Assembly: GCA_035945995.1 (NCBI GenBank)
Contig: DASYZR010000111.1
Span: forward strand, 1-41,641
Length of the DNA: 41,641 nt
Source of the DNA: a bacterium
GTDB lineage: Bacteria; Sysuimicrobiota; Sysuimicrobiia; Sysuimicrobiales; Segetimicrobiaceae
Direction of reading: 5' to 3'
Shown: piece after piece, positions 17,280 to 39,566 of the stretch
Layout of the letters: each line of letters begins with the position of its first letter
How positions within the stretch are numbered: the stretch's first letter is position 1
Notes under the pieces: model-generated
The model's database searches: none
Seen by the model: only the letters and a program-made list of their open reading frames with translations
What the model was told of the DNA's origin: nothing
Program-made: the position numbers and the translations under genes

Positions 17280-17461
17280 TCTGACCCCCCGCTTCTTCTA
17301 GGCGGCAAATTGGACACGCCCTCACTTCACACACTAAGCGGAGAATCGGAAGAACTGGTGAACAGCCCATGGGAAGATGGTGCGGATCGCATGAAGATCA
17401 CCCACCTTCACTGGGTCCGGCAGGAAACCATGGCTGATCGCGCGAGCCGGCCGGTACGGCA

Positions 17462-17932
17462 ATGCTGAAGCGGCTCGGCGTCCGGGTCTGGCGCTGGCTG
17501 CCCGGCTGGACGCGGGGCGCGCTCACGTGGTGCCTGAATGCGCACTTCATCGTCGGCGCCGTCGCCATCATCGAGAACGGCGAGGGCGGCGTCCTCCTCG
17601 CCCGCCACACCTACCGGCGGGATGCCCCGTGGGCGCTGCCCGGCGGCTGGGTGCAGCGCGGGGAGGACCCGAGTAACACGATCGTCCGGGAGATTCTCGA
17701 AGAAACCGGCCTGACCGTCGAGGTGCTCGCCCCGCTCGCCGTGCAGCGGGAAAGCCCGCGCCACCTCACCATCGTCTACTCAGCCCGCCTCGCAGGCGGC
17801 ACGTTTCGCGCCAGCGTCGAGGTCTCCGCAGTGCGCTTCGCGCCGCCGGGCGCCTGGCCGGTCGACCTTCGTGACGATCACCGTGCGCTGATCGAGCAGT
17901 TCGTCCATCATCGAGGCGTCGGGCGCCCGTAG
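17462..17932 (+). CDS. Nudix hydrolase (copy 1)
   Basis: A 156-aa protein with a complete Nudix box G-W-V-Q-R-G-E-(x7)-R-E-I-L-E-E-T-G-L, which binds divalent metal and cleaves nucleoside-diphosphate-linked substrates. The N-terminal segment LKRLGVRVWRWLPGW and CLNAHFIVGAVAII precede it. A close paralogue of exactly the same length lies at 39567-40037 inside the island. The two agree over almost the whole protein and share about 30 bases after the stop codon (gtgt-cgacgtcgaac). The substrate cannot be assigned. No clear SD precedes the ATG. Confidence 0.88.
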   Translation: MLKRLGVRVWRWLPGWTRGALTWCLNAHFIVGAVAIIENGEGGVLLARHTYRRDAPWALPGGWVQRGEDPSNTIVREILEETGLTVEVLAPLAVQRESPRHLTIVYSARLAGGTFRASVEVSAVRFAPPGAWPVDLRDDHRALIEQFVHHRGVGRP

Positions 17933-18077
17933 CGGGTGGGGTGTACGACGTCGAACCCCGCGGCGAGCGGTCATCTGCTCGTGGCCAGAGACTCAGCATG
18001 CCAAACGCCACTAGCCACGGCTCGATCGGGGCGCCGCCGTCGGACCAAGTCCGGTTTCGGCGCGCGGTGGTTTCCAA

Positions 18078-18820: not shown

Positions 18821-19627
18821 TCAGACTTTCTCCGGCTTCTCCATCTGGAAATGCGCGGTGTAGATCGGGTTGCACGACGGGTCGATGCGCTGAAAGAGCC
18901 ACGTCAGAAACTCCCCGGAGAACAACGGGTATAGCCGCAGCCGCTCTTTGGTCATCGGGACACGGTCGCCGATGGTCGTTACGTTCGTGAACCCTGCCTT
19001 ACGCCCGTGCTCCAGAAGCACTTGCTCCGCAAGCGCACCGGCCAGTCAACCTGCGTAGGCGGCCTCGTTCTCCAACACTTCCTTGGGCAGCGCACCATCG
19101 ATCACGGAATCGGAGAACACCAACCGGCCACCCGGCCGAAGCACGCGGAAGATCTCGCGAAAGAGTTTCCCCTTCGATGTGACGAGATTGATGACGCCGT
19201 TGCTGATCACCGCGTCTACGGCACCAGCGGGCAGCGGGATGTCCTCCATGCGCCCTTCGATGAACTCGACGTTCGAGGCTCCCATCGCCCTCGCGTGCGC
19301 CCGTGCTTTCTCAACCATCACCGGCGTCATGTCGAGACCGATCGCTTTCCCGGAAGGGCCGACCTGGAGCGCCGCAAGCAGCGTGTCGATGCCGCCGCCG
19401 CTCCCGAGATCCAGGATGGTGTCTCCGGGCCGCAGACCCGCGTAGCGGACGGGGTTTCCGAGACCGAGCGCCATCTCCGCCGCGGACGTGGGGAGCGGTG
19501 CCAGTTCGTCCGGCGTGTAGAGGCTCTGCGCCACGCCGGCGTCCGCCGGGACTACGGCCCCGTACGTTTCCCTTACAATCCGGGCGGCCTGATCGTCTGA
19601 CCAATGAAGTTCATTCGTCCCAGGCAT
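18821..19627 (-). CDS. ArsM-like SAM-dependent methyltransferase, candidate selenoprotein (in-frame TGA = Sec194)
   Basis: One frame of 269 codons is interrupted only by a TGA at 19048-19046. Before it: SAM motif I ILDLGSGGGIDTLLAA (about 70-86), motif II IGLDMTPVMVEKARAHA, EFIEGRMEDIPLPAGAVDAV, INLVTSKGKLFREIFRVLRP and GGRLVFSDSV. After it: LAGALAEQVLLEHGRKAGFT, then TAHFQMEKPEKV. In ArsM-type arsenite methyltransferases this place reads W/Y-A-G-C-x-x-G-A-L, the catalytic cysteine corresponding to CmArsM Cys174, so TGA replaces exactly that residue. A bSECIS-compatible hairpin follows. The other usual ArsM cysteines are missing (A-L-G-L-G-N-P instead of x-L-G-C-G-N-P). The substrate may thus be arsenic or another thiophile. 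From memory, Sec-containing methyltransferase-domain proteins have been annotated (MduS); I cannot confirm membership. The start at 19627 has gaaggaga ten bases upstream. No sel genes are in the window. Confidence 0.75.
19012..19048 (-). promoter_or_regulatory. candidate bacterial SECIS element with UGA codon
   Basis: Reading the reverse strand, TGA (19048-19046) is followed by 9 bases and then a perfect 8-bp stem GCGCTTGC / GCAAGTGC (one G-U pair; 19036-19029 and 19025-19018) capped by a 3-base loop GGA (19028-19026). CCGG below it can pair with CTGG. The loop starts 17 bases after the UGA. Bacterial SECIS rules ask for a small apical loop about 16-37 bases after UGA, with a G in its first two positions, and both are met. 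Confidence 0.65.
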
Positions 19628-19928
19628 ATACCGTTGTCTCCTTCGGCGCTCCGTGGCGGCTCAAGCGCGGTGCCTCCTAATGTTCCAACCACGGGCGCGG
19701 GTCTGAGTCGACCACGATTGAACTGGGAACTTTCGTATTACCGCCCTCCTCGCCCACCGCTTCTACTGGCATCCGGCCCACCTGGGCTCATCCTTCCTTC
19801 GGCCCTTCGCTTGAGAGGCACCGGCGGAGCCCCGCCGGGCGTATGAGCGTCCCTCAGGCGGTGTCGGGGGTCGACCCCTCCCGTCTCGCCTGCTGCTGAG
19901 GCTGGGGTCGCTCAGCCCTGTGTCAGAA
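19628..19928. other. non-coding stretch upstream of the methyltransferase
   Basis: Neither strand shows a recognisable protein. The region has a short inverted repeat GCTGAG/CTCAGC near 19890-19915 and a GGCGGAGCCCCGCC hairpin near 19825-19838. It should contain the promoter of the leftward methyltransferase gene. I looked for SAM riboswitch cores and did not find one. Confidence 0.35.
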
Positions 19929-20510
19929 TCACTCCGTGCCACCCGATCCGTGCTGCAGCGCCTCGTTAATGAGACCGAGCAAGACGTTCTTGTAGTTCAA
20001 TTTCATCTTCTCGTCTGCCGAAATATCCTTGAAGCCATGCGCTAGCACTTCTCGGTCAATCTGCACCAACGTGGCGATCGCGGTCTTGCGAGCCTCCTTG
20101 AGTCGCTCCTCAGGTTCGGAGCCGGGCGTCTTCGATTTGGTGATCTCCTCCATAAGATCGCGGTACGATCGCAACACAGACACTAACCGGTCCTCTTGCT
20201 GCGTTAGGTCCTCAAGTGTACGCTCCGGCCTCCCCTCGAGCCAGGCATCGATCCAACCGACTTCGTCAGCCGAAGCACCCTCAGCGCTGAGACGCTCGCG
20301 ATCTTCAGGTGAGAGTCTAGACAGTCCGTGCTGCGCGCCCCCGGAGGGCGACGTCGGTGCGCCCCCCTCATCGGCCAGTGATGGTTGGCGTGATGCACTC
20401 AAAGGCGTTGCAGGTATTGTCGCAGAACGGCGCCGCCAGACCGCAAACGGTCCCACAAGAAGTAACAGTGTTCCAAATCCGGTCACGTCATCACCGTCCT
20501 TTCCTGCCAT
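19929..20510 (-). CDS. small membrane-anchored protein of unknown function
   Basis: From the ATG at 20510 the 193-aa protein has one N-terminal hydrophobic helix (GFGTLLLLVGPFAVW) followed by basic WRRR. After a Ser/Pro/Gly linker comes a soluble helical domain rich in Glu, Lys and Arg (EDLTQQEDRLVSVLRSYRDL, KEARKTAIATLVQIDREVLA, then LNYKNVLLGLINEALQHG), consistent with a coiled coil. The frame is open to 20627, but the additional residues are Cys/Arg-rich and not exported-like. A GTG at 20486 with aaaggacgg upstream is an alternative start. Family not recognised. Confidence 0.55.
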   Translation of the reverse strand: MAGKDGDDVTGFGTLLLLVGPFAVWRRRSATIPATPLSASRQPSLADEGGAPTSPSGGAQHGLSRLSPEDRERLSAEGASADEVGWIDAWLEGRPERTLEDLTQQEDRLVSVLRSYRDLMEEITKSKTPGSEPEERLKEARKTAIATLVQIDREVLAHGFKDISADEKMKLNYKNVLLGLINEALQHGSGGTE

Positions 20511-20843
20511 TGAATTTCCACACGATTGAAAGGGCTTGCGCCTTGTTTTGCGCTCACAAAGGGAAAAAACCCGGCACGTCATTTCCGGCCGGGTTCGCCA
20601 TTCGCTCCCTGCCGCCCAGGCGACCATCTACGGGCTGCGGATCATCGCGTCCGAAAGCCGCACGCGCGGTAGCGTTCCGAATCGCCTCTTCCCCGCCCCC
20701 TCATCCGATAGAGCGCATCGTGGCGGCGATCTGATTGTGACTCCGAACGCTTGGGACAGGTCCGAGGTAGATTGCGAATGAACAATCGGCGGCGTCGGAT
20801 TGCCGTGGGGCCGTTCGGCCCTCCCGACGTTTAATCCTGCTCG

Positions 20844-24815: not shown

Positions 24816-25445
24816 CTAGATGTTGAATTTGTAGCAGTACTTCGGCGTCACCCCCCCGACCTGGCCCCACCCGACATGAGAGGCAAAAACGGACCACTCG
24901 TTGGCCCATTCCTCGCACGTTTGTGTCTCCTCTTTGAGTAGTTTCTCCTTTCCCCCCTTGGCCCACAGCAGACGATATCCGCCCCACCAGGCGCCGCCGG
25001 CGCCGGAGGCTTGCGCGGCCGCGAAGCCCTTGAAGTGTTCCTTGAGGGCCGTGCTCCCGCCTTGCTTGCTCCATCGAAGACCGCCGGCCGGCACGGTACT
25101 CACGTCGTGCTTGGATTCGAATACGTAGGTGGTATAGCCGTCGGCACTCACCAACATCAGGACAACACGGAGAATTCTGTACGGCTCCTGGCGTTTATAG
25201 TCGACGGCAAAGGCGTACTGGCCGTCCGGGTGAACGGTCAGTTTGACTCCTCCTGTTCCGTTCTTGAAACGCCAATTCACTATGATCGGTCCCGTGCCGG
25301 GGGCGACAGCTCGTCTTGGGGTCATTTCCACTGGCTTTTCCGCCGCGACCGACGGCGTCGCGCCGGGCGGCGGAGGCGCCGCAGCAACAGAATTGGCAAG
25401 GAGCATCCACGTCGAAAGCATCGATACGAGCCGAAGATATCCCAT
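24816..25445 (-). CDS. exported array protein, domain family A, copy 1
   Basis: A 209-aa protein with the array-type signal peptide (GYLRLVSMLSTWMLLANSVA). The mature domain is shared with the genes at 32795, 33444 and 34142. Block 1 is PIIVNWRFKNGTGGVKLTV, block 2 DGQYAFAVDYKRQEPYRIL, block 3 a V-Y-x-F strand (YTTYVFESKHDVSTVPAGGL), and block 4 RWSKQGGSTALKEHFKGFAA followed by W-G-G-Y-R-L. Two cysteines sit in the C-terminal region (T-C-E-E-W-A-N and K-Y-C-Y-K-F) and may form a disulfide. It appears to be an all-beta extracellular domain that I do not recognise from any named family. An SD (ggagga) lies within the conserved leader just upstream. Confidence 0.75.
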   Translation of the reverse strand: MGYLRLVSMLSTWMLLANSVAAAPPPPGATPSVAAEKPVEMTPRRAVAPGTGPIIVNWRFKNGTGGVKLTVHPDGQYAFAVDYKRQEPYRILRVVLMLVSADGYTTYVFESKHDVSTVPAGGLRWSKQGGSTALKEHFKGFAAAQASGAGGAWWGGYRLLWAKGGKEKLLKEETQTCEEWANEWSVFASHVGWGQVGGVTPKYCYKFNI

Positions 25446-25448
25446 TAT

Positions 25449-25475
25449 GGTCTCCTCCGACTCGGCATGCGATCC
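25449..25475 (-). promoter_or_regulatory. array leader element, copy 1
   Basis: The reverse strand reads GGATCGCATGCCGAGTCGG followed by AGGAGACC and the start codon of the family A gene at 25445. The element recurs before six other island genes or remnants. The core G-A-T-C-G-C-A-T-G-C-C-G-A is partly palindromic around GCATGC and overlaps the SD. Confidence 0.6.
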
Positions 25476-25485
25476 CTACCGGCGG

Positions 25486-26127
25486 TCACGGCATGACCGT
25501 TGGCATGACAGTCGGCACCGAGACGCTCGCACCTGTCGTAGTGAAAAGCCGTGTGCTTCCGCCGGCGTGGAAACCCGTCACCCTTGGGTTGATCACAGGG
25601 ACCGTCGGCGCTGTGTTGATCAGGATAAACCGTGACTCTTGATGCTGCTTGCATAACAGGTTGGGATCCTTCAAGGTAAACGTTATCAGGGCTCCCGGTG
25701 CGCGGCTTCGCGTGGCTTGTTGAGGCGCCACCGTGCCCAATCCATCTGTCCGGTAGGCAACATTGAATGCTGCACTCGAGAAATTCGCCGTCGCGATTCG
25801 GTTGATAGCGCCTGGACCTGAGGTGCGGCGGATGCGATAGTAGAAGTCGAGTCCCCCCCCCGTGCTCGACCGAACCACTCGGTCTTGCAGCTGGCCCGTG
25901 CACAGAACTGCCCCATTCTTCTTGATCGTGAACGGCAGCGATGCGTCGTGGATCACGGTACCTGCCAAGCCTGGCTCTGCGGCGGCGCTCGTTGCCGGCA
26001 CCGCGATGCTCCCACCCGGTGGGAGAGAAACCGATACGGCCAGCGCGGCTGCCGTTGCTGACAAGACAAGCGCCGCGGCGATCCCAGTTGCCAGCCGTCC
26101 TTTATCTCGTGCAAATCCCCTTGTCAA
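25486..26127 (-). CDS. exported protein of unknown function
   Basis: A 213-aa protein with a hydrophobic N-terminal signal region (LATGIAAALVLSATAAALAV). The mature part is beta-rich (LPFTIKKNGAVLCTGQLQDR, RTSGPGAINRIATANFSSAA) and has two cysteines (V-L-C-T-G and L-L-C-K-Q) suited to a disulfide. It ends in a Thr/Val repeat (SVPTVMPTVMP). The start is a TTG at 26127 with an aggaggggaggg run eight bases upstream. It does not carry the array leader. It lies between two array-leader genes on the same strand, and its stop is 10 bases upstream of leader copy 1. Family not recognised. Confidence 0.6.
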   Translation of the reverse strand: MTRGFARDKGRLATGIAAALVLSATAAALAVSVSLPPGGSIAVPATSAAAEPGLAGTVIHDASLPFTIKKNGAVLCTGQLQDRVVRSSTGGGLDFYYRIRRTSGPGAINRIATANFSSAAFNVAYRTDGLGTVAPQQATRSRAPGALITFTLKDPNLLCKQHQESRFILINTAPTVPVINPRVTGFHAGGSTRLFTTTGASVSVPTVMPTVMP

Positions 26128-26253
26128 AGCGTCAACCCTCCCCTCCTATGTCGATCCTGCAGAGGATATGAACCTGACCCCCAATACGTGATCGCCTTCC
26201 ATTCCTGGGGCCGGCCATGAGCGCATGCGCATTTCGGTGCGCCCACCCGAGTC

Positions 26254-26505
26254 TTAGAGGTGCGCTGCCACCCACGCGGCCAGTGTTCCTTCTTGCTCGA
26301 CCATTTGAGATGTCAACGTTCCCTTCGGAAGAAGGTGGATATCGAAGTGCGCCGTCGGTCCCGTGCTGGCGACAACAGAATGGGCAGGCGTAATGTTCGC
26401 TGCCGCATCTGCCGCGGGCAACATCACCGCCGAGGGCATCGCAGAAGCAGAACGGGCAAGAAACACCCAGACTGCAAAAAGTGAAGCCAGGCGAAGGTGT
26501 CCCAT
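26254..26505 (-). CDS. short array protein: shared signal peptide with a different tail
   Basis: An 83-aa protein. The N-terminus GHLRLASLFAVWVFLARSAS is the array signal peptide, preceded by the conserved leader and SD. The mature part (MLPAADAAANITPAHSVVAS, TGPTAHFDIHLLPKG) keeps the family A lead-in x-x-I-T-P-A-H-S-V-V-A-x-x-G-P. It then diverges into TLTSQMVEQEGTLAAWVAAH instead of the P-I-x-V-N-W block. It is either a truncated and recombined family A copy or a real short product. A GTG immediately before the ATG is an alternative start. Confidence 0.5.
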   Translation of the reverse strand: MGHLRLASLFAVWVFLARSASAMPSAVMLPAADAAANITPAHSVVASTGPTAHFDIHLLPKGTLTSQMVEQEGTLAAWVAAHL

Positions 26506-26508
26506 CAC

Positions 26509-26533
26509 GGCCTCCCCGACTCGTCACGCGTCC
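26509..26533 (-). promoter_or_regulatory. array leader element, copy 2
   Basis: The reverse strand reads GGACGCGTGACGAGTCGGG followed by GAGGCC, four bases before the ATG at 26505. It is a diverged version of the G-A-T-C-G-C-A-T-G-C-C-G-A-T-T-C-G-G leader. The SD portion (ggggagg) is intact. Confidence 0.5.
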
Positions 26534-26588
26534 GCAACGCCTGCAGCACCCTGCGCAGACCCCATCGTAGGTCGGATCGGGAGCGCCT

Positions 26589-26695
26589 TTACGGATGCCA
26601 AGGCGGCGCCGATATGGCGACGGCGTCGTTCGCGTACTCGCGCAGATGCTGAAACGAGACAAACCCATACCCGGCGTTGCCGAAGCCTGTGCCAA
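26589..26695 (-). pseudogene. C-terminal fragment of the papain-like protease gene
   Basis: The reverse strand encodes GFGNAGYGFVSFQHLREYAN followed by D-A-V-A-I-S-A-P-P-W and a stop. This matches the last about 33 residues of the protease gene at 28500-29887 with only a few substitutions (Y to H, I to V, K to S). Nothing upstream of G-F-G-N continues the protease, so it is a partial duplicate left by recombination. Confidence 0.75.
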
Positions 26696-26730
26696 CCTCG
26701 CCCTCCCATCGCTGCGCCATGGGCCCCTCC

Positions 26731-26755
26731 CTTTCCCGCAAGGGGTGCGGGAAAG
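26731..26755 (-). terminator. strong hairpin downstream of the G1-like gene
   Basis: A perfect 10-bp inverted repeat, CTTTCCCGCA and TGCGGGAAAG, encloses a 5-base loop and starts 36 bases past the stop codon of the leftward gene ending at 26791. There is no long U-tract. It is the best hairpin in this part of the island. Confidence 0.55.
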
Positions 26756-26790
26756 TTAGGCGCCCGCCCGTCGACGAGCCGATCGTGCGG

Positions 26791-28173
26791 CTACTTCTTG
26801 CTGACGCATCTTCCCCTATTCGCATCCCACGTGTCTTTGGCTCCACACTTTGTCTCAACCCACTTGACTGCCCCGGTTGGCAGGGTGATGAGGAGATGCC
26901 GGGAACTCTTATTGTTGTCGGTCAACAGGTGGACCCTCGGGTCGGTATTTATCCCCACAAATTTGCCTTTTCCCTTGACACCGTCGCCCTTGATCAGATC
27001 GGCAGACCCATGCATCGTCACTGGCGAGAAAATGGGCCACTCGTGCGAACCCTTGACGACCTGGTTGGTGTCGTTTTCGATGATGAATTCCGTCTGCCAG
27101 CCGAGCTTGCCGTTGCCCAGGTCACCGGCGACTAGCTTGTAGGACGGGCAGTCTGAGCTTTCGGCCTGATCGCATTTCCATTGTGCGTGTTGGGTGATGT
27201 CGACCATGTTCGTGCACTCGTAGCCACCGTTCAGATCCAAGCCTCCCTTGGCGTTGCAATACCACTCCTCGATGGAGATGAGGTCGCCGGGCCTCGGAGT
27301 GAATCGTGTTCCTGCGGTGTCGATTCCCTTGTTGCTGTGAGGGTCAAAAGACTGGCGGTGAATCCCAAATGATGCGGTTGTCGCCGTCGTACGTACGTCG
27401 ATGAGGGCTTGGAAAACATTGTCGAGCCCGTTCCATATCGTCATCGCGGCAGTGGGACCGGGCGTCACCTTTGGGACAACGACGGTTGCCGAACTCGCCC
27501 CGTAACTGAGTGTCTCAGCGGACGTCGCCTTCTTTTGGTAGGAACCTTGAAGGATGACCCCGGTCCAGCCAGACGACGGGGTCGTGTAGACCTTCGCGTT
27601 TAACACGGGGGCCGGCAAAGTTCGGTCAGTACGGAGCTCGTGCACCGGCACGCTCGCCGCAGCCAGCCACCTTTGGTACGCGTCCGGATTCTCTGCCGGA
27701 TCGGGGCGCAGCCCGTAGCCTGCCTTTACCAGTTCTTCCGGCGTGAAGCGACGCGGGTCGCCGGTAAGTGCTGGCCGAACCGCCAGAGTCGTGCGCGATG
27801 CGTCAAACGGGCGCGGTTTGAAAGTCGCCTCCGAGCGAAGATCGACGGAATAGGTCTTGGTCCGTTTATTGGTATCGGTGCAATCGAGCGCCAACCGCTC
27901 GACGCTGCTCGGCAGCTTTGGACGCACCGCGAGAAAGCGGGCCACGCCGTCCTCTTCGGCATTGATGTGGAGTGACTGCCGCGGGTCGTTGTTCCCCGCG
28001 GGGTGGAGCATGCAGTTGCTGCCCGGGAGAACGGCGACCGAGGCCTCCTCAAATTGCCCCGCATCGCCTGGCGCCGCGGCGGAGCGCGCGATGTTGGGGT
28101 ACATCGCCAGACCGACAATCAGCACAAACGCACACGCTACGCCGCGGCGACCGGAGGATCCGTGCCGTACCAT
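26791..28173 (-). CDS. exported G1-peptidase-like (eqolisin-fold) protein
   Basis: A 460-aa protein with a signal peptide (GVACAFVLIVGLAMYPNIAR). After a 170-residue N-terminal region (SLHINAEEDGVARFLAVRPK) comes SSGWTGVILQGSYQKKATS, then a V-V-V-P strand, then MTIWNGLDNVFQALIDVRTT. In eqolisin-type G1 proteins these correspond to the N-W-S-G start, the V-P strand and the W-x-G-x-D-G...L-I-Q-x-G block. The catalytic Gln position appears as Asp here (L-I-D-V), so peptidase activity is doubtful. FTPRPGDLISIEEWYCNAKG and several Cys (ECTNM, KCDQAESSDCPSYK) suggest disulfides. The end holds KWVETKCGAKDTWDANRGRC. An aggagg SD precedes the ATG by five bases. Assignment is by motif order only. Confidence 0.5.
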   Translation of the reverse strand: MVRHGSSGRRGVACAFVLIVGLAMYPNIARSAAAPGDAGQFEEASVAVLPGSNCMLHPAGNNDPRQSLHINAEEDGVARFLAVRPKLPSSVERLALDCTDTNKRTKTYSVDLRSEATFKPRPFDASRTTLAVRPALTGDPRRFTPEELVKAGYGLRPDPAENPDAYQRWLAAASVPVHELRTDRTLPAPVLNAKVYTTPSSGWTGVILQGSYQKKATSAETLSYGASSATVVVPKVTPGPTAAMTIWNGLDNVFQALIDVRTTATTASFGIHRQSFDPHSNKGIDTAGTRFTPRPGDLISIEEWYCNAKGGLDLNGGYECTNMVDITQHAQWKCDQAESSDCPSYKLVAGDLGNGKLGWQTEFIIENDTNQVVKGSHEWPIFSPVTMHGSADLIKGDGVKGKGKFVGINTDPRVHLLTDNNKSSRHLLITLPTGAVKWVETKCGAKDTWDANRGRCVSKK

Positions 28174-28222
28174 GGCAGCCTCCTGAAAATAGGAAATTTT
28201 GCGTTTCAGCCGACGCGATCAG

Positions 28223-28465
28223 TTACCACACGATAATGGGGCCATTCGGAGAACCTTCGCAATACCACGCTCGCCAGGATGCCCAGAACCACTTGTCGTC
28301 CTCTTTCACTTTGCATCGCCGCATCTGGCCTGGAGTTGTTTTCTGTCTTCAACGCTCGCCCCAAACTCATATGACCCGTACCAGGCGTGCTGAGAAAATG
28401 TCTTGAAGGCGTTCTTGAGCACGGCGCTCTTGCCGTGCTTACTCCATCCGGAGTGAGCGCCTGCG
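28223..28465 (-). pseudogene. fragment of an array domain family A gene
   Basis: The reverse strand reads HSGWSKHGKSAVLKNAFKTF, then S-Q-H-A-W-Y-G-S-Y-E-F. This is block 4 of family A (W-S-K-x-G-x-S-A-x-L-K-x-x-F-K-x-F...W-x-G-x-Y). After R-K-Q-L-Q-A-R-C the frame shifts. A second frame (KEDDKWFWASWRAWYCEG) continues to a stop at 28223, as expected for the W-x-x-x-x-W/Cys-rich family A C-terminus. The signal peptide and blocks 1-3 are missing, so the fragment is dead. Confidence 0.6.
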
Positions 28466-28499
28466 CTCAGTGATTGGTTCCTTTCTGCATAACAACGCA

Positions 28500-29887
28500 T
28501 CAGTGCTTGGGGCGCGGGGCGCGCCTGGCTGACGGCCAGGGCGGCGCCTTTATGGCGATGGCGTCGTTCGCGTACTCGCGCAGATACTGAAACGAGACAA
28601 ACCCATACCCGGCGTTGCCGAAGCTTGGGCCAAAACTGTTCCGAAAGATGAAATACCCGCCGCCGGGAAAGGCGCGCGATTCGTGGAACCCGACCAAGTC
28701 GATGGAATGGCCGTCGAACATCGGCGGGTTGGGGCCTGAATTGGCACTGCGGGGATAGTCCTTGAGTAGCGGAACGCCGTCGACGGTCACCGTGGCGAAG
28801 TTCGTGAGCCACCAGATCCCCGTGGCCACGGGCCGGCCGGAACGGAGCGTCGCCAGCACGCGCTGCAGCTCCGCGGGGGTCATCCCCTTGGTGTTGTCCC
28901 AGACCTTGAGGGTAGTAAACGGGTATCGGACCGGAAACATCGCCTTGGCCGCGGCGATGGTCGAGGCGCTCGGCGTCGCGGGATGGGTGGGATCGTACGC
29001 CGGCAGGTACGGCATGCTCGCGTTTGGCGCGATCCCCCACGTCTGATACCCACTGATCATCTTCGTGAAGAATCCGCCGTCGCTGTCTTCGCCGGTCGCT
29101 TTGTTGCCCGCTCAGTTGAGATACTCCTCCGACAGCGCAGCCGCGCTCCCGTGTGCGCTGGTCATCGCGGCCCGCTGGTACTCGATCAGAAACGTCGTCG
29201 CAAACACGGTGCACGTGCCGCGATTCCCCTGATCGCGCACGGCGAGGGCGCGGCGCATGATGATGGGGCGAAGGTCGACCTCCGGCGCGCGACCGGAGGC
29301 GAAGTGCTCTGTGAAGGTGACACGGACCGGTACCGCGGGTCGCCAGTTGGGGTTGCGTCCGGGGTTGGCCGTGGAGATTGTCTGCGGCGGATGTGGTGCG
29401 AACGTCGGCGACGGCGTGACTTTCACAGCCGTCTGGCTCGTGATCCGCACGGTGGACGTGGCCGCGTCCCATAGCACGTCGGCGCCGAGCGCCTGACTCA
29501 CGATACGAAGCGGGACCATCGTGCGGCCGCCGACGAGCACCGCCGGCACGTCCAAAAACTGCGGAGCTCATTTACGGACGCCCCTGTTGACCCGATCCTG
29601 AGGGCAACACGGGTTGCGCCGTGCTGCGCAAGCACCGTCTGCGACGCCGAAGCCCAGGCGACCGTCGCTTCCAGGCGTTCGAAGGCACCGCGCAGAGGAA
29701 CGAGGACCCTTCCCTTCGTGATCACCGGCGCCTGATCGAATTGGACAACACCGCCGTCAACAAGAACCCGGACGGACCGCGTCGGGGTTTGCGCGATTGT
29801 CTGTGAGGTGAGGCCTGCACACAATGCCGCCATCAGGACAGCACCGACGAGCCTCCTGTGGAGTAACTCCGTCTGCGCCGCCACCAT
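28500..29887 (-). pseudogene. exported papain-like cysteine protease with copper-amine-oxidase-type stalk domain, disrupted
   Basis: The original gene ran from an ATG at 29887 (SD ggaggggagggg) to 28500, about 462 codons. It has a signal peptide (LVGAVLMAALCAGLTSQTIA), a stalk/Cu-amine-oxidase N-terminal-like domain (VLVDGGVVQFDQAPVITKGR, VLVPLRGAFERLEATVAWAS) and a C1A peptidase with Q/C in D-Q-G-N-R-G-T-C-T-V-F-A, His in D-G-H-S-I-D-L-V-G-F and Asn in F-R-N-S-F-G-P. Two lesions are visible. A one-base deletion near 29565 shifts V-N-[G]-A-P-Q-F-L-D-V-P-A. A TGA at 29114-29112 replaces the Trp of E-E-Y-L-N-W-A. All three catalytic residues are preserved, so the loss may be recent or sequencing-related. 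It might have processed neighbouring array proteins (inference). Confidence 0.75.
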
Positions 29888-29963
29888 TTCCCCTCCCCTC
29901 CGTTCTTCTTGCCGGCCACGACCCGCAGCAAAGAGGGCCCCACGCGGTGCGCCGGCAGTGTGG

Positions 29964-30482
29964 TCACGGGTCAGCGTTGCCGTCTTTGTCCTGATCCTGT
30001 TCGCGGGACGTCTGTAAGATCACTTGCCGGCCAGGATAAGCCCCGCGCCAGGAATGGCCCTTCTGGTAAATCTGGAAGTCTGACCCAATAGCGGAATTCT
30101 CGCCCTTGCGGCTCCATTTGACGTTCCCGGCCGACGCGATGTTGGAACAACATGGCGGCGGCGGAGAGATTGGGGCTGCCTTTTTCAAACACCACAATCA
30201 CAGCTTCCAAATACTTGCCCTTCGACTCGGGTTCATAGTTGCCGGAAAACTGGTAGCTGCCGTTCGAGTCAACGAGCAGATGGGCTGATCCTTTTCCACT
30301 CTTGAAGGTCCAATTCACCTTGATAGATCGTCCCTTGCCGGCGGGAACCGGATTCTCTGGTGTGGCTTCCACTGCCCGAACAGCCACGGCGACATCGCCG
30401 CAGACGGCGGGGACGTTGCAAAGGCAACATTGGCCGGGAACACCCAGACGGCAAGCAGCGCGACCAAACGAAGATGCTTCAT
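29964..30482 (-). pseudogene. array domain family A copy with two frameshifts
   Basis: The ATG at 30482 opens the array signal peptide (KHLRLVALLAVWVFPANVAF). After P-P-S-A-A-M the frame is lost. Blocks 1-2 continue in another frame (VEATPENPVPAGKGRSIKVN, W-T-F-K-S-G-K-G, LLVDSNGSYQFSGNY). A second shift near 30165 puts block 4 in the third frame (VKWSRKGENSAIGSDFQIYQ, K-G-H-S-W-R-G-A-Y), ending at 29964. Homology to the intact copies makes both shifts clear. The leader upstream is well preserved. Confidence 0.75.
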
Positions 30483-30483
30483 C

Positions 30484-30514
30484 TCGGCCTCCCCGAAATA
30501 GCATGCGTTTTCGG
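30484..30514 (-). promoter_or_regulatory. array leader element, copy 3
   Basis: The reverse strand reads CCGAAAACGCATGC, then TATTTCGGGGAGG, just before the ATG at 30482. CCGAAA and TTTCGG form an inverted repeat around the GCATGC core, and the SD (ggggagg) overlaps the distal arm. The leader is preserved although the gene is frameshifted. Confidence 0.6.
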
Positions 30515-30636
30515 CAAGATGTTGGAGCCCCCCCCGAGCGATCGGTCATTCTCGCGCTTGCGCAGACATCCTCCTTGTCAGCCGCCTGGCAGATCGCCGC
30601 CGTGCCGACTCCCAATTTTCCTCTGGTCAGAAGGCG

Positions 30637-30966
30637 CTATCGCGGAAATAACGCGGCCGCGTACCGCAGATCCGGCTGCATCTCGTCAGCCAAAACGTCC
30701 GGCGCGTAGATCTCAAGATAATTGACGTGCCGACCAGCACTGTTTCGTTTCATCGCGATATCAATTGATTTTCTGAGGGCAAGGAGAGGATCGCCCTCGG
30801 CGCTCATCCTTTTGCTCGCGAATTTAGCAGCCGTTCTCATTTGAAAGCCGGTGACAATGCGTCCGATGTAGCCAATGACGAATTGGTCCTCCGCTTGTGA
30901 GTTGGGAGTGTGAGCGCCTTGGCCCGCATGGACATCGTTTAATTGAAGCGTAAATCGTCGCGGCAC
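30637..30966 (-). pseudogene. C-terminal fragment of the TIM-barrel glycosidase-like gene
   Basis: About 110 codons match the end of the protein at 21375-22472. RRFTLQLNDVHAG aligns with the R-F-A-L-Q-N-S-N segment, DQFVIGYIGRIVTGFQMRTA with D-F-V-I-R-Y-N-G-Q-I-V-T-G-F-Q-L-R-T, and VNYLEIYAPDVLADEMQPDL with the C-terminus. The homology stops abruptly at about 30966, where IS1380-type transposase sequence begins on the other strand. The insertion therefore probably removed the N-terminal 250 residues. No authentic start remains. Confidence 0.75.
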
Positions 30967-31290
30967 CACAACAAGAGAGGAACCGCAGAACAGTGGATCA
31001 AGGAAGGCAAGCTAGCCGTGAAGATGACACGGCTGAGTTGTCACCGGTTCCGGGCCAACGAGGTGGGCTCGCGCTGAGCGTCATCGCCTACAACCTGGGG
31101 AACCTGTGGCGTCGACTCGCCGTGCCGAAGCAGATTGACACCTCGTCGCTGACGAGCTTGCAGCAACGATTGATCAAGACAGGTGGCCGTCTCGTGAAAC
31201 ATGACGGTACTATTGGTTGCTGCTGGCGGAAGGGCACCTGACGCGGCGGTTATTCGGGACGATCGTGCAGCGGCTGGCCACGCCTACCGG
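30967..31290 (+). mobile_element. IS1380-family transposase C-terminal remnant
   Basis: Three successive frames join into a family-typical C-terminus: N-K-R-G-T-A-E-Q-W-I-K-E-G-K and KMTRLSCHRFRANEV, then (shift) ALSVIAYNLGNLWRRLAVPK and LTSLQQRLIKTGGRLVKH, then (shift) YYWLLLAEGHLTRRLFGTIV. IS1380 transposases end with exactly this Y-N-L-G-N-L-W-R-R-L block. The catalytic N-terminal part is absent. The remnant separates the leftward and rightward halves of the array, and its left edge truncates the glycosidase copy. Confidence 0.75.
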
Positions 31291-31625
31291 GGCCCGCAGG
31301 GTAGCAGACGCCATCGTTGCAGCCGCCGTCAGCGGCAAGGAGGCCGAGGGGCATGGTGTCCGAGAAATCGGCTGTCAGCGCGACCGTGCTGAGCTTTGGG
31401 GGTTTCAGGGGTCCCCGAACAGGCCTTCGCATGGGCCACATGATAGAGTCCGGACGAAGAACCTGGCCGGGCTCCGCAAATGGAAGGAGTCGAGGGCCAA
31501 AAAACAGAAATCCCGGTCAACGATCAGCCTACCATCGAGGCAGAATGTAGACTAGGCTACTGGTCACTCATCTGGCAAAGCTTACCTAGGAATCAACGGC
31601 GTCGCACTACCCTTCTAGCCGTATC
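31291..31625. other. non-coding stretch after the IS remnant
   Basis: About 335 bases without a recognisable gene. The first part may be the 3' end of the former insertion sequence. I could not locate terminal inverted repeats or a target duplication. The stretch 31460-31600 is lower in G+C than its surroundings (ccaaaaaacagaaatcccgg). Confidence 0.35.
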
Positions 31626-32213
31626 ATGCGTCGATTGGGCGTGCTCCCGATCGCGTGCCGATTAGGGGGTGTTACGACGAAACGTCTATATCTCGTTTCC
31701 CTGCTTGGCGTCTGGGTGCTCGTTGCCGGTACCGCCGCCCCTGCGGCGCCCAAACCGCCGACGGAGGCGTGCACGCTGCTTCCGGTCGCGCAGGTCGGCA
31801 AGGCATTCGGAACGCCGTTCCACGTCACCACCCGCAATGGGGAGATCGCGCCGCTAGGCCGCAACACCGCCCCGGGATCGCAGTGCAGCTACACCTCCAA
31901 GAAGCGGCTCCCGGGCTTCCGCGAACCCGGTGGAAACCTGGGGATCTGGTACGTCGTGTACGTGGAGTCATCGACGGCCGTCGCTCGGAACGTGTTCACG
32001 AGCTGGCGGTCGTTCATCGACCGAACCACGGGCCGGACCACCACGGTGGCCGGCATCGGCGATGCCGCATTCCGCGACCCCAATTATGTCCTTCATGTGC
32101 GCACAGGAAAGGCGCACTTCGACATGGGCTTCAACCCGGGGGGCTATAAACCCCCGAACGACCAGCAAGAACGACAACGAGATCTGGCCCAGTGGGTGGT
32201 ACGGCACCTCTAA
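31626..32213 (+). CDS. exported DUF3558-like protein on an array leader, start codon degraded
   Basis: The array signal peptide (KRLYLVSLLGVWVLVAGTAA) is followed by a different mature domain: ACTLLPVAQVGKAFGTPFH, C-S-Y-T-S-K-K, then GIWYVVYVESSTAVARNVFT and TTVAGIGDAAFRDPNYVLHV. The C-x-L-L-x-x-x-x-V start, second Cys and G-I-G-D-A-A-F block resemble the DUF3558 lipoprotein-like fold. The leader element lies at 31649-31669, so by comparison with the other copies translation should begin at 31677. That codon is ACG (atg changed to acg). The nearest usable upstream codons are ATG 31626, TTG 31635 and GTG 31641, which would add 12-17 residues before the signal peptide. I give 31626, with doubt. 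Confidence 0.6.
   Translation: MRRLGVLPIACRLGGVTTKRLYLVSLLGVWVLVAGTAAPAAPKPPTEACTLLPVAQVGKAFGTPFHVTTRNGEIAPLGRNTAPGSQCSYTSKKRLPGFREPGGNLGIWYVVYVESSTAVARNVFTSWRSFIDRTTGRTTTVAGIGDAAFRDPNYVLHVRTGKAHFDMGFNPGGYKPPNDQQERQRDLAQWVVRHL
31649..31669 (+). promoter_or_regulatory. array leader element, copy 4
   Basis: GATCGCGTGCCGATTAGGGG matches the leader of the 32795 gene almost base for base. It precedes the array signal peptide codons, but the expected ATG is ACG at 31677-31679. Confidence 0.55.
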
Positions 32214-32432
32214 GACGGTCGCGCCAGAGTACGCACCCAGGCCAACCCGCGGCAATTGGGCGTCAAGCCGTCGATCTCAAGAATACACGAGTTGCAACGA
32301 AGGGGTCGCGAACCGTATGAGGCGGACGTGGGTCTCGCTTAGGGAATTGGTCCCACACCGCAGGTCGTCCGGTTGGCGCCAACGGCGAGCGACACAATGG
32401 TTTGCCTGCCCGCTCGGTCGGGATCGCCCAGC
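32214..32432. other. non-coding stretch
   Basis: No recognisable gene lies between the DUF3558-like gene and the DUF1566-like fragment. Together with that remnant, the DNA from 32214 to 32794 is mostly decayed sequence. Confidence 0.35.
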
Positions 32433-32654
32433 CCGAACGGGTCGATGGGTTGGACGGCAGCGCAAGCGTGGATCGCCGCGATGAAAAAGGCCAACTATCT
32501 GAGTAGTCGCCAATGGAGTCTGCCCGCGACGAAACTTCCGGACCCGACCTGCAGTCAGAAGCCCAAGTCCGCGGCCTTCGGCTCCGGTTTGCAAGAGCAG
32601 CCAGATGGAAGACCTATTAGCGTGGGGGAACTTTCCGGCCCGGAGTGGCGCTAA
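32433..32654 (+). pseudogene. DUF1566-like domain fragment
   Basis: The frame encodes SMGWTAAQAWIAAMKKANYL, then S-S-R-Q-W-S-L-P-A-T and L-P-D-P-T-C-S-Q. This is the W-x-x-A-x-x-W/Y...G-x-x-x-W-R-L-P-T-x...P-D-P-S-C block of DUF1566-type exported proteins. The Leu-Pro pair and P-D-P-x-C are diagnostic enough for a tentative call. It lacks a start, signal peptide and the rest of the domain, so it is a relic. Confidence 0.45.
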
Positions 32655-32767
32655 AGAACGCGGTGCAGAGCGGCGGCGGTTACCAGGGTTCCCGGACGGC
32701 CGGTTGCATAGGACATCCGCGAAAGAGCGCGAACAGGCACTTCCAGTTTCCGGTAACGGCGGATACG

Positions 32768-32790
32768 GATCGCATGCCGATTCGGGGGGG
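32768..32790 (+). promoter_or_regulatory. array leader element, copy 5
   Basis: GATCGCATGCCGATTCGGGG precedes the ATG at 32795 by five bases. GGATCG and CGATTC pair around CATGC, and the G-run acts as the SD. Confidence 0.6.
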
Positions 32791-32794
32791 CACA

Positions 32795-33379
32795 ATGAAA
32801 GTTCTCCGCCTCGTTTCCGTCCTTGCGGTGTGCGTAGTCTTCACCGGCCCAGTCTTTGCAACACCCGCGCCGCCCGGTGTCACGCCGTCGCTGGCGGCGG
32901 AAGTGCCGGTGGAAATCACCCCGGTACATTCCGTGGCGCACGGCAACGGACCGATCGTAGTAAACTGGCACTTCAAGAACGGGACAGGATTAGTGAATCT
33001 GACCGTCAGTCCTGACGGCGCATACCGTTTTTCAGGCGACTATAAACGCAAAGAACCGGGCAAGATTTTCCACGTTGAACTTGCGTTGAAAAGCCGCGTG
33101 GGCGCGGTCTACCTGTTCCGGTATACGGGAGACGCATCGAACGCGGTTCGATGGAGTGAGAAAAGCGGGAGCGCCATTCTCAAAGAGGACTTCAAGTATT
33201 TCGCGCCGGGCCATGAATGGGCCGGGACATACGGCTTGAGCTTGACGGCGGAGGCGAAAAAGCGGCTGCGCGAGCAGCAGAAGGATACTTGTCAGACGAT
33301 GTGGCGGGCAATCGGCTGGAGCTCGGCTGCGTCAGTCAGCTTCCCAAAGTACTGCAAGCAATTTAACACGGCGTGGTAG
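32795..33379 (+). CDS. exported array protein, domain family A, copy 2
   Basis: A 194-aa protein with signal peptide KVLRLVSVLAVCVVFTGPVF and mature family A blocks. These are a Pro-rich lead-in (PAPPGVTPSLAAEVPVEITP), VHSVAHGNGPIVVNWHFKNG, LTVSPDGAYRFSGDYKRKEP, GKIFHVELALKSRVGAVYLF, then RWSEKSGSAILKEDFKYFAP and GHEWAGTYGLSLTAEAKKRL. Two C-terminal cysteines (D-T-C-Q-T-M-W and K-Y-C-K-Q-F) match copy 1 and probably pair. Copies 2 and 3 share near-identical DNA around V-A-H-x-N-G-P-I-V-V-N-W, so they are a recent tandem duplication. The frame continues upstream to 32645, but the leader and signal peptide fix the ATG. Confidence 0.8.
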   Translation: MKVLRLVSVLAVCVVFTGPVFATPAPPGVTPSLAAEVPVEITPVHSVAHGNGPIVVNWHFKNGTGLVNLTVSPDGAYRFSGDYKRKEPGKIFHVELALKSRVGAVYLFRYTGDASNAVRWSEKSGSAILKEDFKYFAPGHEWAGTYGLSLTAEAKKRLREQQKDTCQTMWRAIGWSSAASVSFPKYCKQFNTAW

Positions 33380-33412
33380 CATCGGCGTTCCGCAACCCGA
33401 CTGATCTGACCA

Positions 33413-33440
33413 CGAATCGCATGCCGATTCGAAGGGGGCC
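33413..33440 (+). promoter_or_regulatory. array leader element, copy 6
   Basis: The best-formed copy: CGAATCG, CATGC, CGATTCG is a perfect 7-bp inverted repeat with a 5-base centre (33413-33431), followed by AAGGGGG and the ATG at 33444. It could fold in the mRNA just ahead of the ribosome site or bind a dimeric repressor. Confidence 0.65.
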
Positions 33441-33443
33441 GAG

Positions 33444-34058
33444 ATGAAATATCTTCGTCCTATAGGTTCGCTACTTCCAGTCTTGATGTTCCTCGGCAGC
33501 TCTGTCTCAGCGACGACCCCGCCGCCCACCGGGACGGCTCCCCCCGAGGCACATGTGCGAGTGGAAACCACCCCGGTACATCATGTGGCGCACAGCAACG
33601 GACCGATCGTAGTGAATTGGCATCTCAAGAACGGGCAGGGACAGGCCAATGTGCTCGTCAACCCAGACGGCACATATCTCTTTTCGGGTAACTATACACG
33701 CAAAGAACCAGGCAAGATTCTCGATCTTGCGCTCTTGCTGAAAAGCAAGAAGGCCGGCGTGTATATGTTTCGTTACGTGGGGGACGTGTCGCGTGGCGGC
33801 GTTCGGTGGAGCGCGCACGGCAAGAGCGCCATCCTCAAGGACGACTTCAAGGATTTCGCGCCCGGGCATGACTGGGCCGGGACGTATGGCTTTTCGTTGA
33901 CCGCCGAGGGGAGAGAGCAGCAGCGCAAGTATCAGCTGGCGGTCTGCCACGGGCAGTATTGGGGCGCGAGTCAGGCGGACTATAGGCTCTGGCAAAAGTA
34001 CGAATGGAAGTCGGGATCGATAATGGACCCGAAGTTCTGCGCACAGTATGGCCTTTAG
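33444..34058 (+). CDS. exported array protein, domain family A, copy 3
   Basis: A 204-aa protein with signal peptide KYLRPIGSLLPVLMFLGSSV. Mature blocks follow the family order: TTPVHHVAHSNGPIVVNWHL, KNGQGQANVLVNPDGTYLFS, YTRKEPGKILDLALLLKSKK, then RWSAHGKSAILKDDFKDFAP and GHDWAGTYGFSLTAEGREQQ. The C-terminal segment differs more between copies (YWGASQADYRLWQKYEWKSG) but keeps Cys in V-C-H-G-Q and K-F-C-A-Q. It lies 64 bases after copy 2 and 83 bases before copy 4, each with its own leader, so each may be independently regulated. Confidence 0.8.
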   Translation: MKYLRPIGSLLPVLMFLGSSVSATTPPPTGTAPPEAHVRVETTPVHHVAHSNGPIVVNWHLKNGQGQANVLVNPDGTYLFSGNYTRKEPGKILDLALLLKSKKAGVYMFRYVGDVSRGGVRWSAHGKSAILKDDFKDFAPGHDWAGTYGFSLTAEGREQQRKYQLAVCHGQYWGASQADYRLWQKYEWKSGSIMDPKFCAQYGL

Positions 34059-34112
34059 ATGAGACAGGCTCCCGACGCGCCCGATTGACAATAGTCTTGA
34101 CGGTCTGACGCC

Positions 34113-34138
34113 GATCGCGTCGCGACTCGGAGGAGGCC
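34113..34138 (+). promoter_or_regulatory. array leader element, copy 7
   Basis: GATCGCGTCGCGACTCGG followed by AGGAGGCC, four bases before the ATG at 34142. The central GCATGC is changed to GCGTCGC, while flanks and SD are conserved. A TTGACA hexamer lies at 34085-34090, a possible -35 element without a clear -10. Confidence 0.5.
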
Positions 34139-34141
34139 ACG

Positions 34142-34762
34142 ATGGGACGTCTTCGCCTAACAGGTTCGCTGCTTGCAGTCTGCGTGTTCCTTGCCCGTTC
34201 TGCCTTTGCGACGACGCCGCCCCCCGTTGCGGGGCCTTCGCCGGTGGTAGGGGCACCAGTAGAAGTTACCCGCGCACATCATTCTGTGGCCGACAAAGAC
34301 ATTGCGGCTGGCAAGAAACCTATCATTGTGAATTGGAACTTCAAGGACAAGCAAGGGTTCGCGCATCTCATCGTTAATCCGGATGGCACCTATCTGTTTT
34401 CGGGCAACTACCGGCGCGGGGTGCCGTTCGAGGATCTCGACGTTGTACTGTTGTTGATGACCGGTAAGGGCCGCGCCTACGTGTTCGAGTACAGCCACAG
34501 CGTGAACACGGTGCCGGCCGGCGGTCTGGTGTGGAGCAAGCAAGGCCAGAGCGCACTTCTCAAGGACGATTTCAAGAATTTCGCGGCCGGGCATACATGG
34601 GGAGGCGCATATCGTCTCATATTGACTGCTAAGGGGAAGAAAGCGCAGCATCGACTCTGCACGACATTGCTTAACGATAACAGTTGGAGCTGGGGAGGTT
34701 ACGGGCAGGAAGACTGGGGTTGGCACGCTCCGGCATACTGCCACAAGTTTGACATCTATTAG
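34142..34762 (+). CDS. exported array protein, domain family A, copy 4
   Basis: A 206-aa protein with signal peptide GRLRLTGSLLAVCVFLARSA. The mature blocks are PIIVNWNFKDKQGFAHLIVN, PDGTYLFSGNYRRGVPFEDL, then VFEYSHSVNTVPAGGLVWSK and ALLKDDFKNFAAGHTWGGAY. The SVNTVPAGG and F-E-Y/S-x-H motifs make it closest to copy 1 (24816-25445, D-V-S-T-V-P-A-G-G-L) even though the two lie on opposite sides of the IS1380 remnant. The C-terminus (SWGGYGQEDWGWHAPAYCHK) is Trp/Gly-rich with the conserved final Cys. A Cys in L-C-T-T-L is its likely partner. Confidence 0.8.
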   Translation: MGRLRLTGSLLAVCVFLARSAFATTPPPVAGPSPVVGAPVEVTRAHHSVADKDIAAGKKPIIVNWNFKDKQGFAHLIVNPDGTYLFSGNYRRGVPFEDLDVVLLLMTGKGRAYVFEYSHSVNTVPAGGLVWSKQGQSALLKDDFKNFAAGHTWGGAYRLILTAKGKKAQHRLCTTLLNDNSWSWGGYGQEDWGWHAPAYCHKFDIY

Positions 34763-34855
34763 CACGGCGCTTCGCGGTGCGCCGGCCACGTCACGCACGA
34801 TCTGGGCCGCGGGCCTGATGTCGTGCACCAGGCTGCACGACTCCCCCGCCCACAT
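34763..34855 (-). pseudogene. possible C-terminal scrap of a nitronate monooxygenase
   Basis: The reverse strand encodes WAGESCSLVHDIRPAAQIVR followed by D-V-A-G-A. Many nitronate monooxygenase/enoyl-reductase-like (NMO/FabK) proteins end with A-G-Q-S-x-G-L-V-x-D-I-x-P-A-A-E-I-V-R-x-I. Nothing further upstream can be joined with confidence. The rest of the 34763-35243 gap is without a recognisable gene apart from the promoter region for the oxidoreductase at 35244. Confidence 0.4.
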
Positions 34856-35243
34856 CGGGTGGACGGCGTGATGTGGCTCGACCCAGGCGATGATGGCCGC
34901 ATACCGAACAGCTGGGGCTCGGAGTATTCAGTACGCCACGTCGCCGTCGAACCGAGGATGGTCGCAGCGACCATGGTGCCGATCTCGCCGTCCGACTTCG
35001 CCAGGTGCGCCCGGGTCTCGATCACCCGCGCTACCAGGGCCTGCACCTTCTCCTCACTGCTCATCAGCCGATTAACTGTGCCGTTGGGAAGGCCGCCGCT
35101 GTGGCAGGCTACCACGTTTCAAACAACAGCGAGCAGGAACGCGAAGGCCGCGCGGAATACGCTTCTGTAGTCGCACCTGTGACTACCCCGCGAGTGCCCG
35201 AGACCAGGTCGGGCGTGTAGCCCACGCGAGAGGAGCGCACACC

Positions 35244-36161
35244 ATGCAACTCGGCTTCTTCCTTCCCATGATTGGCACGGCCGCCGACCCGCAGGCGGTC
35301 GTCCAAGTCGCTCGCAAGGCAGAAGAGTTGGGCTACGACAGCGTGTGGGTCACGGAACGCCTGATGTACCCGCTGACGCCCCAGTCGCCGTATCCGGGTA
35401 GCCCTGATGGCTCGTTGCCCGACGTGTACAAGCGCGCCCTCGATCCTGTTGAGACGCTCACGTTCGTCGCAGCCCACACCAGCCGGGTGGCCCTCGGGAC
35501 GAGCGTCCTGGACATGCCGTACTACAACCCGGTGATGCTGGCCCGACGTCTGACCACACTGGACATCCTCTCAGGCGGGCGACTCCGCGTCGGGCTCGGC
35601 CAGGGGTGGTCGAAGGACGAATACGACGCCGTGGGTGTGACACCAAAGGGTCTGGGCCGACGCGCGGACGAGTTCCTCCAGGTTCTCAAGGCGATTTGGA
35701 CCACCGATCCGGTGGAGTTCCACGGCCGGTTCTTCCACGTGCCAAAGTCGATCATTCAACCGAAGCCGGTCCAAAAGCCACACCCACCCATTTACCTCGC
35801 AGCATACTCACCGAGCGCCCTCAAGCGCGCGGCGACGCTGGCGAACGGCTGGCATCCTACCGGAGTGCCGCTCGATGGCCTGAAACAGATGATGGCCGGG
35901 CTTAAGAGCATGGCGCAGGCCGCCGGGAGGGACCCGGCTGCGGTCGAGGTCATCGTCCGCGCGAACTTGTTGATCTCGCCGCGTCCGTTAGGAAAGGATC
36001 GGTGGATGTTTGCGGGCGCGCTGGACGAAATCAAAAAGGACATCGCCACCACCAGGACGCTGGGGGCCAGCGCCTTGGTCGTCGACCCGACGTTCTCCTC
36101 GGACGTGAAGTCCGCTGCCGATTTCATCAGAATCATGGAGCAGATTCGCGGGCTCGCATAG
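35244..36161 (+). CDS. luciferase-like monooxygenase (LLM), F420/FMN-dependent oxidoreductase
   Basis: A 305-aa TIM-barrel protein of normal length. The start MQLGFFLPMIGTAADPQAVV, the EELGYDSVWVTERL strand-helix, then TSRVALGTSVLDMPYYNPVM and LDILSGGRLRVGLGQGWSKD are signatures of the LLM family, probably the F420-dependent branch (G-L-G-Q-G-W, then H-G-R-F-F-H-V and P-K-P-V-Q-K-P-H-P-P-I). The substrate is unknown. The SD (gagaggagcg) fits the ATG. It is one of few apparently intact metabolic genes in the island, has no co-directional partner within 300 bases, and F420 synthesis genes are not in the window. Confidence 0.88.
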   Translation: MQLGFFLPMIGTAADPQAVVQVARKAEELGYDSVWVTERLMYPLTPQSPYPGSPDGSLPDVYKRALDPVETLTFVAAHTSRVALGTSVLDMPYYNPVMLARRLTTLDILSGGRLRVGLGQGWSKDEYDAVGVTPKGLGRRADEFLQVLKAIWTTDPVEFHGRFFHVPKSIIQPKPVQKPHPPIYLAAYSPSALKRAATLANGWHPTGVPLDGLKQMMAGLKSMAQAAGRDPAAVEVIVRANLLISPRPLGKDRWMFAGALDEIKKDIATTRTLGASALVVDPTFSSDVKSAADFIRIMEQIRGLA

Positions 36162-36238
36162 CATCTGACGGGGCCGGGGCTCCATGATTTGGGGCCTGGA
36201 TGCGTCCACCAATCATCCACGGCCTCGGGCCCGATCTG

Positions 36239-36457
36239 TCAGCCGCCCCACCAGGCGACGAGCCGCGCGCGCTGCGGCACCACGAGGTACCCGCGGCCCC
36301 GCACGGTGCCGATGGCGTCCAACGTCACATCGAGCAAGAACGACCGCATCCCCTGGCCAGCGTAATCCCGTCGCGTTCTCGCCATGACGGAACCTTGCAT
36401 CGCCGCTTCGACGTCCGCTTCGGGGTAGACGGTGCGGTACCGGAGTGTGATCTTCAC
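36239..36457 (-). CDS. small conserved-looking protein, 72 aa
   Basis: The frame KITLRYRTVYPEADVEAAMQ, then AGQGMRSFLLDVTLDAIGTV and GYLVVPQRARLVAWWGG reads as a compact beta-alpha-beta unit. I chose GTG at 36457 because gaggag lies eight bases upstream. A second GTG at 36478 would add seven residues. It is divergent from the gene at 36524. Family not recognised; it could be a regulator or toxin-sized protein. Confidence 0.4.
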   Translation of the reverse strand: MKITLRYRTVYPEADVEAAMQGSVMARTRRDYAGQGMRSFLLDVTLDAIGTVRGRGYLVVPQRARLVAWWGG

Positions 36458-39553: not shown

Positions 39554-39566
39554 TGTGACCACGCGA

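Follow-up and report, generated by a model that had tools for sequence, protein, structure and literature searches.

An ArsM-like selenoprotein with a reduced arsenic-ligand site

The gene and its surroundings

The window analysed here is the whole 41,641-nt stretch of contig DASYZR010000111.1, from a bacterium of the phylum Sysuimicrobiota. On its minus strand, at positions 18821-19627, lies a gene that, when translated through one internal TGA, encodes an ArsM-like protein of 268 residues with selenocysteine (Sec) at position 194; the assignment is based on this readthrough translation and on homologues with the same TGA. The ATG start codon begins at 19627, a Shine-Dalgarno-like AAGGAG (19638-19643, minus strand) is found 10 nt ahead of it, and the terminal stop (18823-18821) is likewise a TGA. 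The internal TGA, codon 194 (19048-19046), aligns with Cys224 of CmArsM and Cys206 of human AS3MT, and is followed on the same strand by a SECIS hairpin at 19018-19036, with an 8-bp stem (GCGCUUGC/GCAAGUGC) and a GGA loop. Also on the minus strand are the codons of the SAM-binding motif LDLGSGGG (residues 72-79, 19391-19414), which is conserved in the alignment of a protein whose best Pfam match is Methyltransf_31. By alignment, Leu56 (19460-19462, minus strand) occupies the position of the ArsM ligand Cys72, with LGCGNP replaced by LGLGNP, and Gly144 (19196-19198, minus strand) that of Cys174, with SNC replaced by SNG. The selenoprotein contains one Sec and one Cys, the latter being Cys252 (18872-18874, minus strand), which is kept in 4 of the 5 close copies described below and replaced in that of G033.

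The locus was first described in a reading made from the letters alone (the sequence-only reading), which proposed a 269-codon frame broken only by the TGA at codon 194, with family homology running on past it. Translation bears this out, and conserved ArsM-family homology is indeed found beyond the TGA; the frame is real, and we add that it lies on the minus strand, which that reading had left unstated. Its expectation that annotation pipelines would cut the gene in two is also borne out, as ORF calling with table 11 yields two ORFs of 193 aa and 66 aa.

Elsewhere in the window, a Cyclic di-GMP-II riboswitch aptamer (20578-20661, minus strand; 55.9 bits, over the gathering score) lies about 950 nt ahead of the selenoprotein gene and overlaps the start of a same-strand ORF at 19929-20627 that has no Pfam match. 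A Nudix hydrolase gene occurs twice (17461-17964 and 39566-40068); the copies, 22 kb apart, share 84% DNA identity, and several further, shorter duplications occur within 25000-39300.

Decoding of the internal TGA

The genome contains tRNA-Sec, selA, selB and selD. The tRNA-Sec (70.8 bits, with ARAGORN in agreement), selA (551 bits) and selB are found together on a 12.6-kb contig (C155), while selD (386 bits, contig C5) contains one TGA of its own, read as MVACAG-U-ASKLSP. An fdhA-like gene on contig C88 likewise has a TGA, in the motif RVUHGPT. We take the TGA positions in selD and the fdhA-like gene to be known Sec sites, and on this family knowledge, UGA decoding appears to be in use in the genome. 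The in-frame TGA of the fdhA-like gene is itself followed by a hairpin with an 8-bp stem and a 3-nt loop (L126, around 1840-1880).

We also observe on contig C24 a second tRNA with a UCA anticodon, which scores 56.6 bits to tRNA-Sec (L061 4245-4331) and stands in tandem with an 87-nt UGC-anticodon tRNA (L061 4355-4441). The two are possibly unusual long-arm tRNAs, and no counterpart of the second UCA tRNA over the cut-off was found in other genomes of its genus. Its presence lends something to the idea of UGA being decoded by a different tRNA with a UCA anticodon, one that would insert a residue other than Sec. This we regard as extremely improbable, however, given that the TGA is also kept where the genome has just one, strong tRNA-Sec (G026, for example), that relatives have Cys at the same position, and that the hairpin is of the SECIS type.

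In the bSECIS model, an apical loop of 3-9 nt, with a G within its first two positions, lies 16-37 nt past the UGA on an upper stem of 4-16 bp, with an MFE of -7.5 or lower (PMC13188914). The hairpin GCGCUUGC-GGA-GCAAGUGC falls within each of these limits: its 8-bp stem begins 9 nt from the UGA, its GGA loop lies 17 nt from the UGA, and its energy is -10.4 kcal/mol. Across six sequences, standard pairs fill 97.9% of the pair cells and two pairs show double compensatory changes, with pairing falling to 12-44% when the partner is shifted by 1-3 columns; the RNAalifold consensus is the same helix. When the window sequence was re-coded synonymously, 47 of 1000 trials attained the stem energy of the native sequence; for the four close homologues, the figure is 8 to 54 per 1000. 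In five of the six hairpin copies, the stem uses the rare Leu codon CTT, which accounts for 5.5% of Leu codons, and the Gln codon CAA, which accounts for 17.5%. When the window RNA is folded alone over 45 nt, an alternative structure is lower in energy than the SECIS hairpin, and the support for the latter thus comes from conservation and not from single-sequence energy.

A search of 43 genomes of the phylum reveals four close homologues, three of them in other genomes, each with one internal TGA; codon 194 is TGA in all five close copies. These homologues are found in G026 (84% identical), in a second copy within the same genome (contig C96, about 76-77%), and in G012 and G033 (69% each). In a sister group with about 45-53% identity, the TGA is at the matching place in G036, G041, G005, G003, G001, G017 and G018, and other homologues have Cys at this site. 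The only Cys form of the close and sister groups within the phylum (L026) is that of G037, a genome whose best tRNA-Sec match is a weak 53 bits and whose genus (g20) yielded no selA. The sequence-only reading had itself raised a read error at 19046-19048 as a way in which it could fail; we reject this explanation, as the TGA is identical in independent genomes and in the second copy, on separate contigs, where an error in one base would not recur. The two other outcomes that it had named as fatal, a genome lacking sel genes and relatives showing TGC or TGT with no further TGA forms, were checked as well and do not hold.

Some assemblies are less regular. G012, with its TGA homologue, yielded neither selA nor tRNA-Sec, though completeness here is 72%. 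In G040, tRNA-Sec is strong (81.4 bits) but selA is missing from the assembly, and the methyltransferase copy, at the end of a contig, is truncated. G034, at 100% completeness, has selA in overlapping pieces and no tRNA-Sec that we could find, and its methyltransferase (L066 5203-5650) consists of the C-terminal third only. The cases of G034 and G040 look like decay or assembly damage, and G034 may represent a loss of selenocysteine use caught under way. In all three genomes reached via other records (L051, L052, L053), selA is present.

The two degraded copies of G034 and G040, along with the reading of TGA as stop in table 11, are what can be said for a genuine stop, which would leave a truncated 193-residue enzyme or a pseudogene. 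After the TGA, dN/dS is 0.20 against the G026 homologue and 0.17 against the C96 copy, indicative of purifying selection, while before it the values are 0.09 and 0.13, respectively; against the more distant copies, dN/dS is higher, at 0.38 (G033) and 0.67 (G012). Purifying selection past the TGA, together with the SECIS, leads us to reject a pseudogene. More broadly, a genuine stop is very improbable in view of this selection, the TGA in five copies, the covariation of the SECIS, the complete Sec machinery and the substitution of Cys in a genome that lacks selA. The reading of TGA194 as Sec, proposed initially from the window sequence, is now very well supported by the sel genes, the alignment of homologues at codon 194 and the hairpin.

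Active site, distribution and gene context

An AlphaFold model of the protein, with Cys substituted for Sec, has a mean pLDDT of 92, and its best matches among solved structures are ArsM proteins (Z 25.7-25.9), with the next families at about 22. The protein combines the ArsM/AS3MT fold with a SAM motif. Alignment to CmArsM (4kw7) and CrArsM (5evj) places residues 56, 144 and 194 at Cys72, Cys174 and Cys224, respectively, which are here Leu, Gly and Sec. The position of Cys224 (human Cys206) is thus filled by Sec194, while those of Cys72 (human Cys61) and Cys174 (human Cys156) have no thiol. The sequence-only reading had recognized the loss of the LGCGNP cysteine, which we confirm, and had missed the second, at the SNC cysteine (SNGVINL, Gly144). 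With two of the three arsenic-ligand cysteines gone instead of one, altered chemistry is better supported than was first stated. In CmArsM, Cys174 and Cys224 are required in both methylation steps and Cys72 in the first, and arsenite is bound by three cysteines, methylarsenite by two and dimethylarsenite by one (PMC3877260). Set against these requirements, the combination of Leu56, Gly144 and Sec194 means that the canonical arsenite site is absent.

One alternative is an ordinary selenoprotein arsenite methyltransferase, in which As(III) is methylated with small thiols taking the place of the Cys72 and Cys174 ligands. The ArsM fold and best structural matches are consistent with it, as is the best NCBIfam model, arsenite methyltransferase NF008823, and Sec-containing ArsM is already a known family. 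Nevertheless, we consider this explanation unlikely. The score to NF008823 is 233.9 bits, below its cut-off of 263, and Cys174, essential in both CmArsM and AS3MT (PMC3877260), is Gly in every copy of the window gene's clade. Moreover, this genome encodes a further ArsM of the all-Cys kind, which passes NF008823 at 358.6 bits and adjoins a gene for an ArsR-family regulator; arsenite in this organism is probably handled by that enzyme.

We surveyed loci from the phylum, from Chloroflexota and from one Nitrospirota genome, discarding repeated loci. Of the 32 proteins with Gly at the 174 site, 26 have Sec at the 224 site, and of the 47 with Cys at the former, 46 have Cys at the latter; some of the Chloroflexota loci in this set had been picked with the model of a Sec family. 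The association was assessed by a Fisher test on rows related by descent; as the SNG state changes only twice on the tree, its p-value is not that of independent events. In the tree, the five-copy branch of the window gene (support of 99) is sister to a branch associated with a conserved operon, described below, and both lie within a 16-row SNG clade (support of 99). The sole Sec protein to keep both other cysteines is that of the Nitrospirota genome (L052), which passes NF008823 at 326.9 bits, and this suggests that conventional Sec-ArsM and the branch of the window gene differ in their sites. Only distant ArsM proteins were found in plasmid records. In one Chloroflexota genome (G288, L104 7916-9455), two different SNG-type methyltransferases lie in tandem, and each has Cys in place of Sec.

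Among the genes tested, the five close copies have no common neighbours; the gene thus appears to stand alone, and its context names no substrate. In the sister branch, a conserved order of ECF sigma factor, zf-HC2 protein and methyltransferase (Sec or Cys) is followed, in varying order and composition, by OsmC, cupin, AhpD-like CMD, DUF1326 and PpoB2. This cluster occurs in the phylum and, in part, in Chloroflexota, the loci in the two phyla being L063, L064, L065, L103, L104, L106, L107, L108, L109 and L033. Its make-up suggests an operon that responds to stress from reactive or metal species. Having sought the operon genes around all five close copies and found none, we rejected the cluster as a guide to the window gene.

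The sister-branch operon bears on a further explanation, in which the enzyme methylates not arsenic but a chalcogen (selenol, persulfide or thiol) or a soft metal. Sec194 would in that case carry the acceptor as a selenenyl bond or a metal selenolate, and the operon, with its OsmC, AhpD-like CMD and zinc-finger protein, would be a thiol or redox stress response. The full set of operon genes, from ECF sigma, zf-HC2 and methyltransferase to OsmC, CMD, cupin, DUF1326 and PpoB2, is in line with such a role, as are an HMA P-type ATPase and a MerR gene near the methyltransferase in L063. We nonetheless regard it as rather unlikely: the operon is absent around the window gene and its four close homologues, and a function of the sister clade need not carry over to this one.

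Proposed reaction and relation to known families

The explanation that we favor, and consider probable as a whole, is that Sec is inserted at UGA194 into a methyltransferase that would act through a lone selenolate on a soft acceptor with a single protein ligand. In this proposal, SelB, tRNA-Sec and the hairpin just past codon 194 would direct Sec insertion at the UGA, giving a predicted SAM-dependent methyltransferase of the ArsM/AS3MT fold. Sec194, where CmArsM has Cys224, an arsenic ligand that it cannot do without, is the sole survivor of the classical three ligands. The selenolate might then tether the soft acceptor via one Se-X bond aligned with the SAM methyl; after methyl transfer, the product would be released through thiol exchange. 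Such a single-chalcogen site would suit not inorganic arsenite but an acceptor held by a lone protein ligand, for instance a dimethylated arsenical or some other organometalloid or chalcogen species. The metalloid methyltransferase with a selenolate nucleophile put forward in the sequence-only reading is plausible. More tentatively, we think it quite possible that the gene belongs to a widespread ArsM-like branch that has lost two of three ligands, uses a lone selenolate and acts on a substrate other than inorganic arsenite. Terminal organometalloid methylation, with selenium making up for the lost thiols, is an example to which we give similarly guarded credence.

Selenocysteine is known mostly from redox enzymes, and here it stands in place of an acceptor-binding ligand of a methyltransferase. 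Should a single selenolate indeed replace a three-thiol arsenic site, this branch offers a direct test of what selenium gains for metalloid methylation. Related genomes encode Sec, Cys and three-Cys versions, so that native proteins would serve for the comparison. There is also a practical consequence: standard gene calling cuts such genes in two, and naming by homology would label the pieces as "arsenite methyltransferase".

When compared to solved structures, the protein shares its fold (Z 20-26) with CmArsM (4fr0, 6cx6), CrArsM (5evj) and human AS3MT (8xt7), as well as the SAM site and the position of the last catalytic residue, and differs from them in having Leu56 for Cys72, Gly144 for Cys174 and Sec194 for Cys224. 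Among selenoproteins, an "Arsenite methyltransferase NF008823 UxxG" is listed as known in Table 1 of PMC13188914, which cites Fomenko 2007, and the present gene is therefore not the first Sec-containing ArsM. Like that type, it has an ArsM-like domain with Sec in U-x-x-G at the Cys224/Cys206 site; unlike it, it falls below the model's cut-off and has lost both other arsenic-ligand cysteines. The family does not appear in the main text of the deep-Sep paper (PMC12013277).

Three fused ArsM-type selenoprotein families with NCBIfam models are attributed in PMC13188914 to Haft and Tolstoy 2025. ArsM_AhpD_UU (NF041537), ArsM_DUF2284_UU (NF041536) and MTase_UXPK_star (NF047649) also have an ArsM-like domain with Sec in UxxG, whereas the present protein is a single domain of 268 residues without an AhpD, DUF2284 or UXPK part. 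Its scores to these models, 172.5, 150.9 and 159.2 bits, compare with cut-offs of 510, 575 and 460, respectively, and the match to NF041537, which is defined by 510 bits and an AhpD domain, covers only residues 30-220. No member of the fusion families over the NCBIfam cut-offs was found in 400 Chloroflexota genomes; the Chloroflexota proteins nearest to NF041537 have SNG and Sec as well, and the reduced site may thus be common to the described fusions. As judged from the sequence, the present protein is a single-domain variant that lies outside the cut-offs of these models and has an active site predicted to be down to one selenium.
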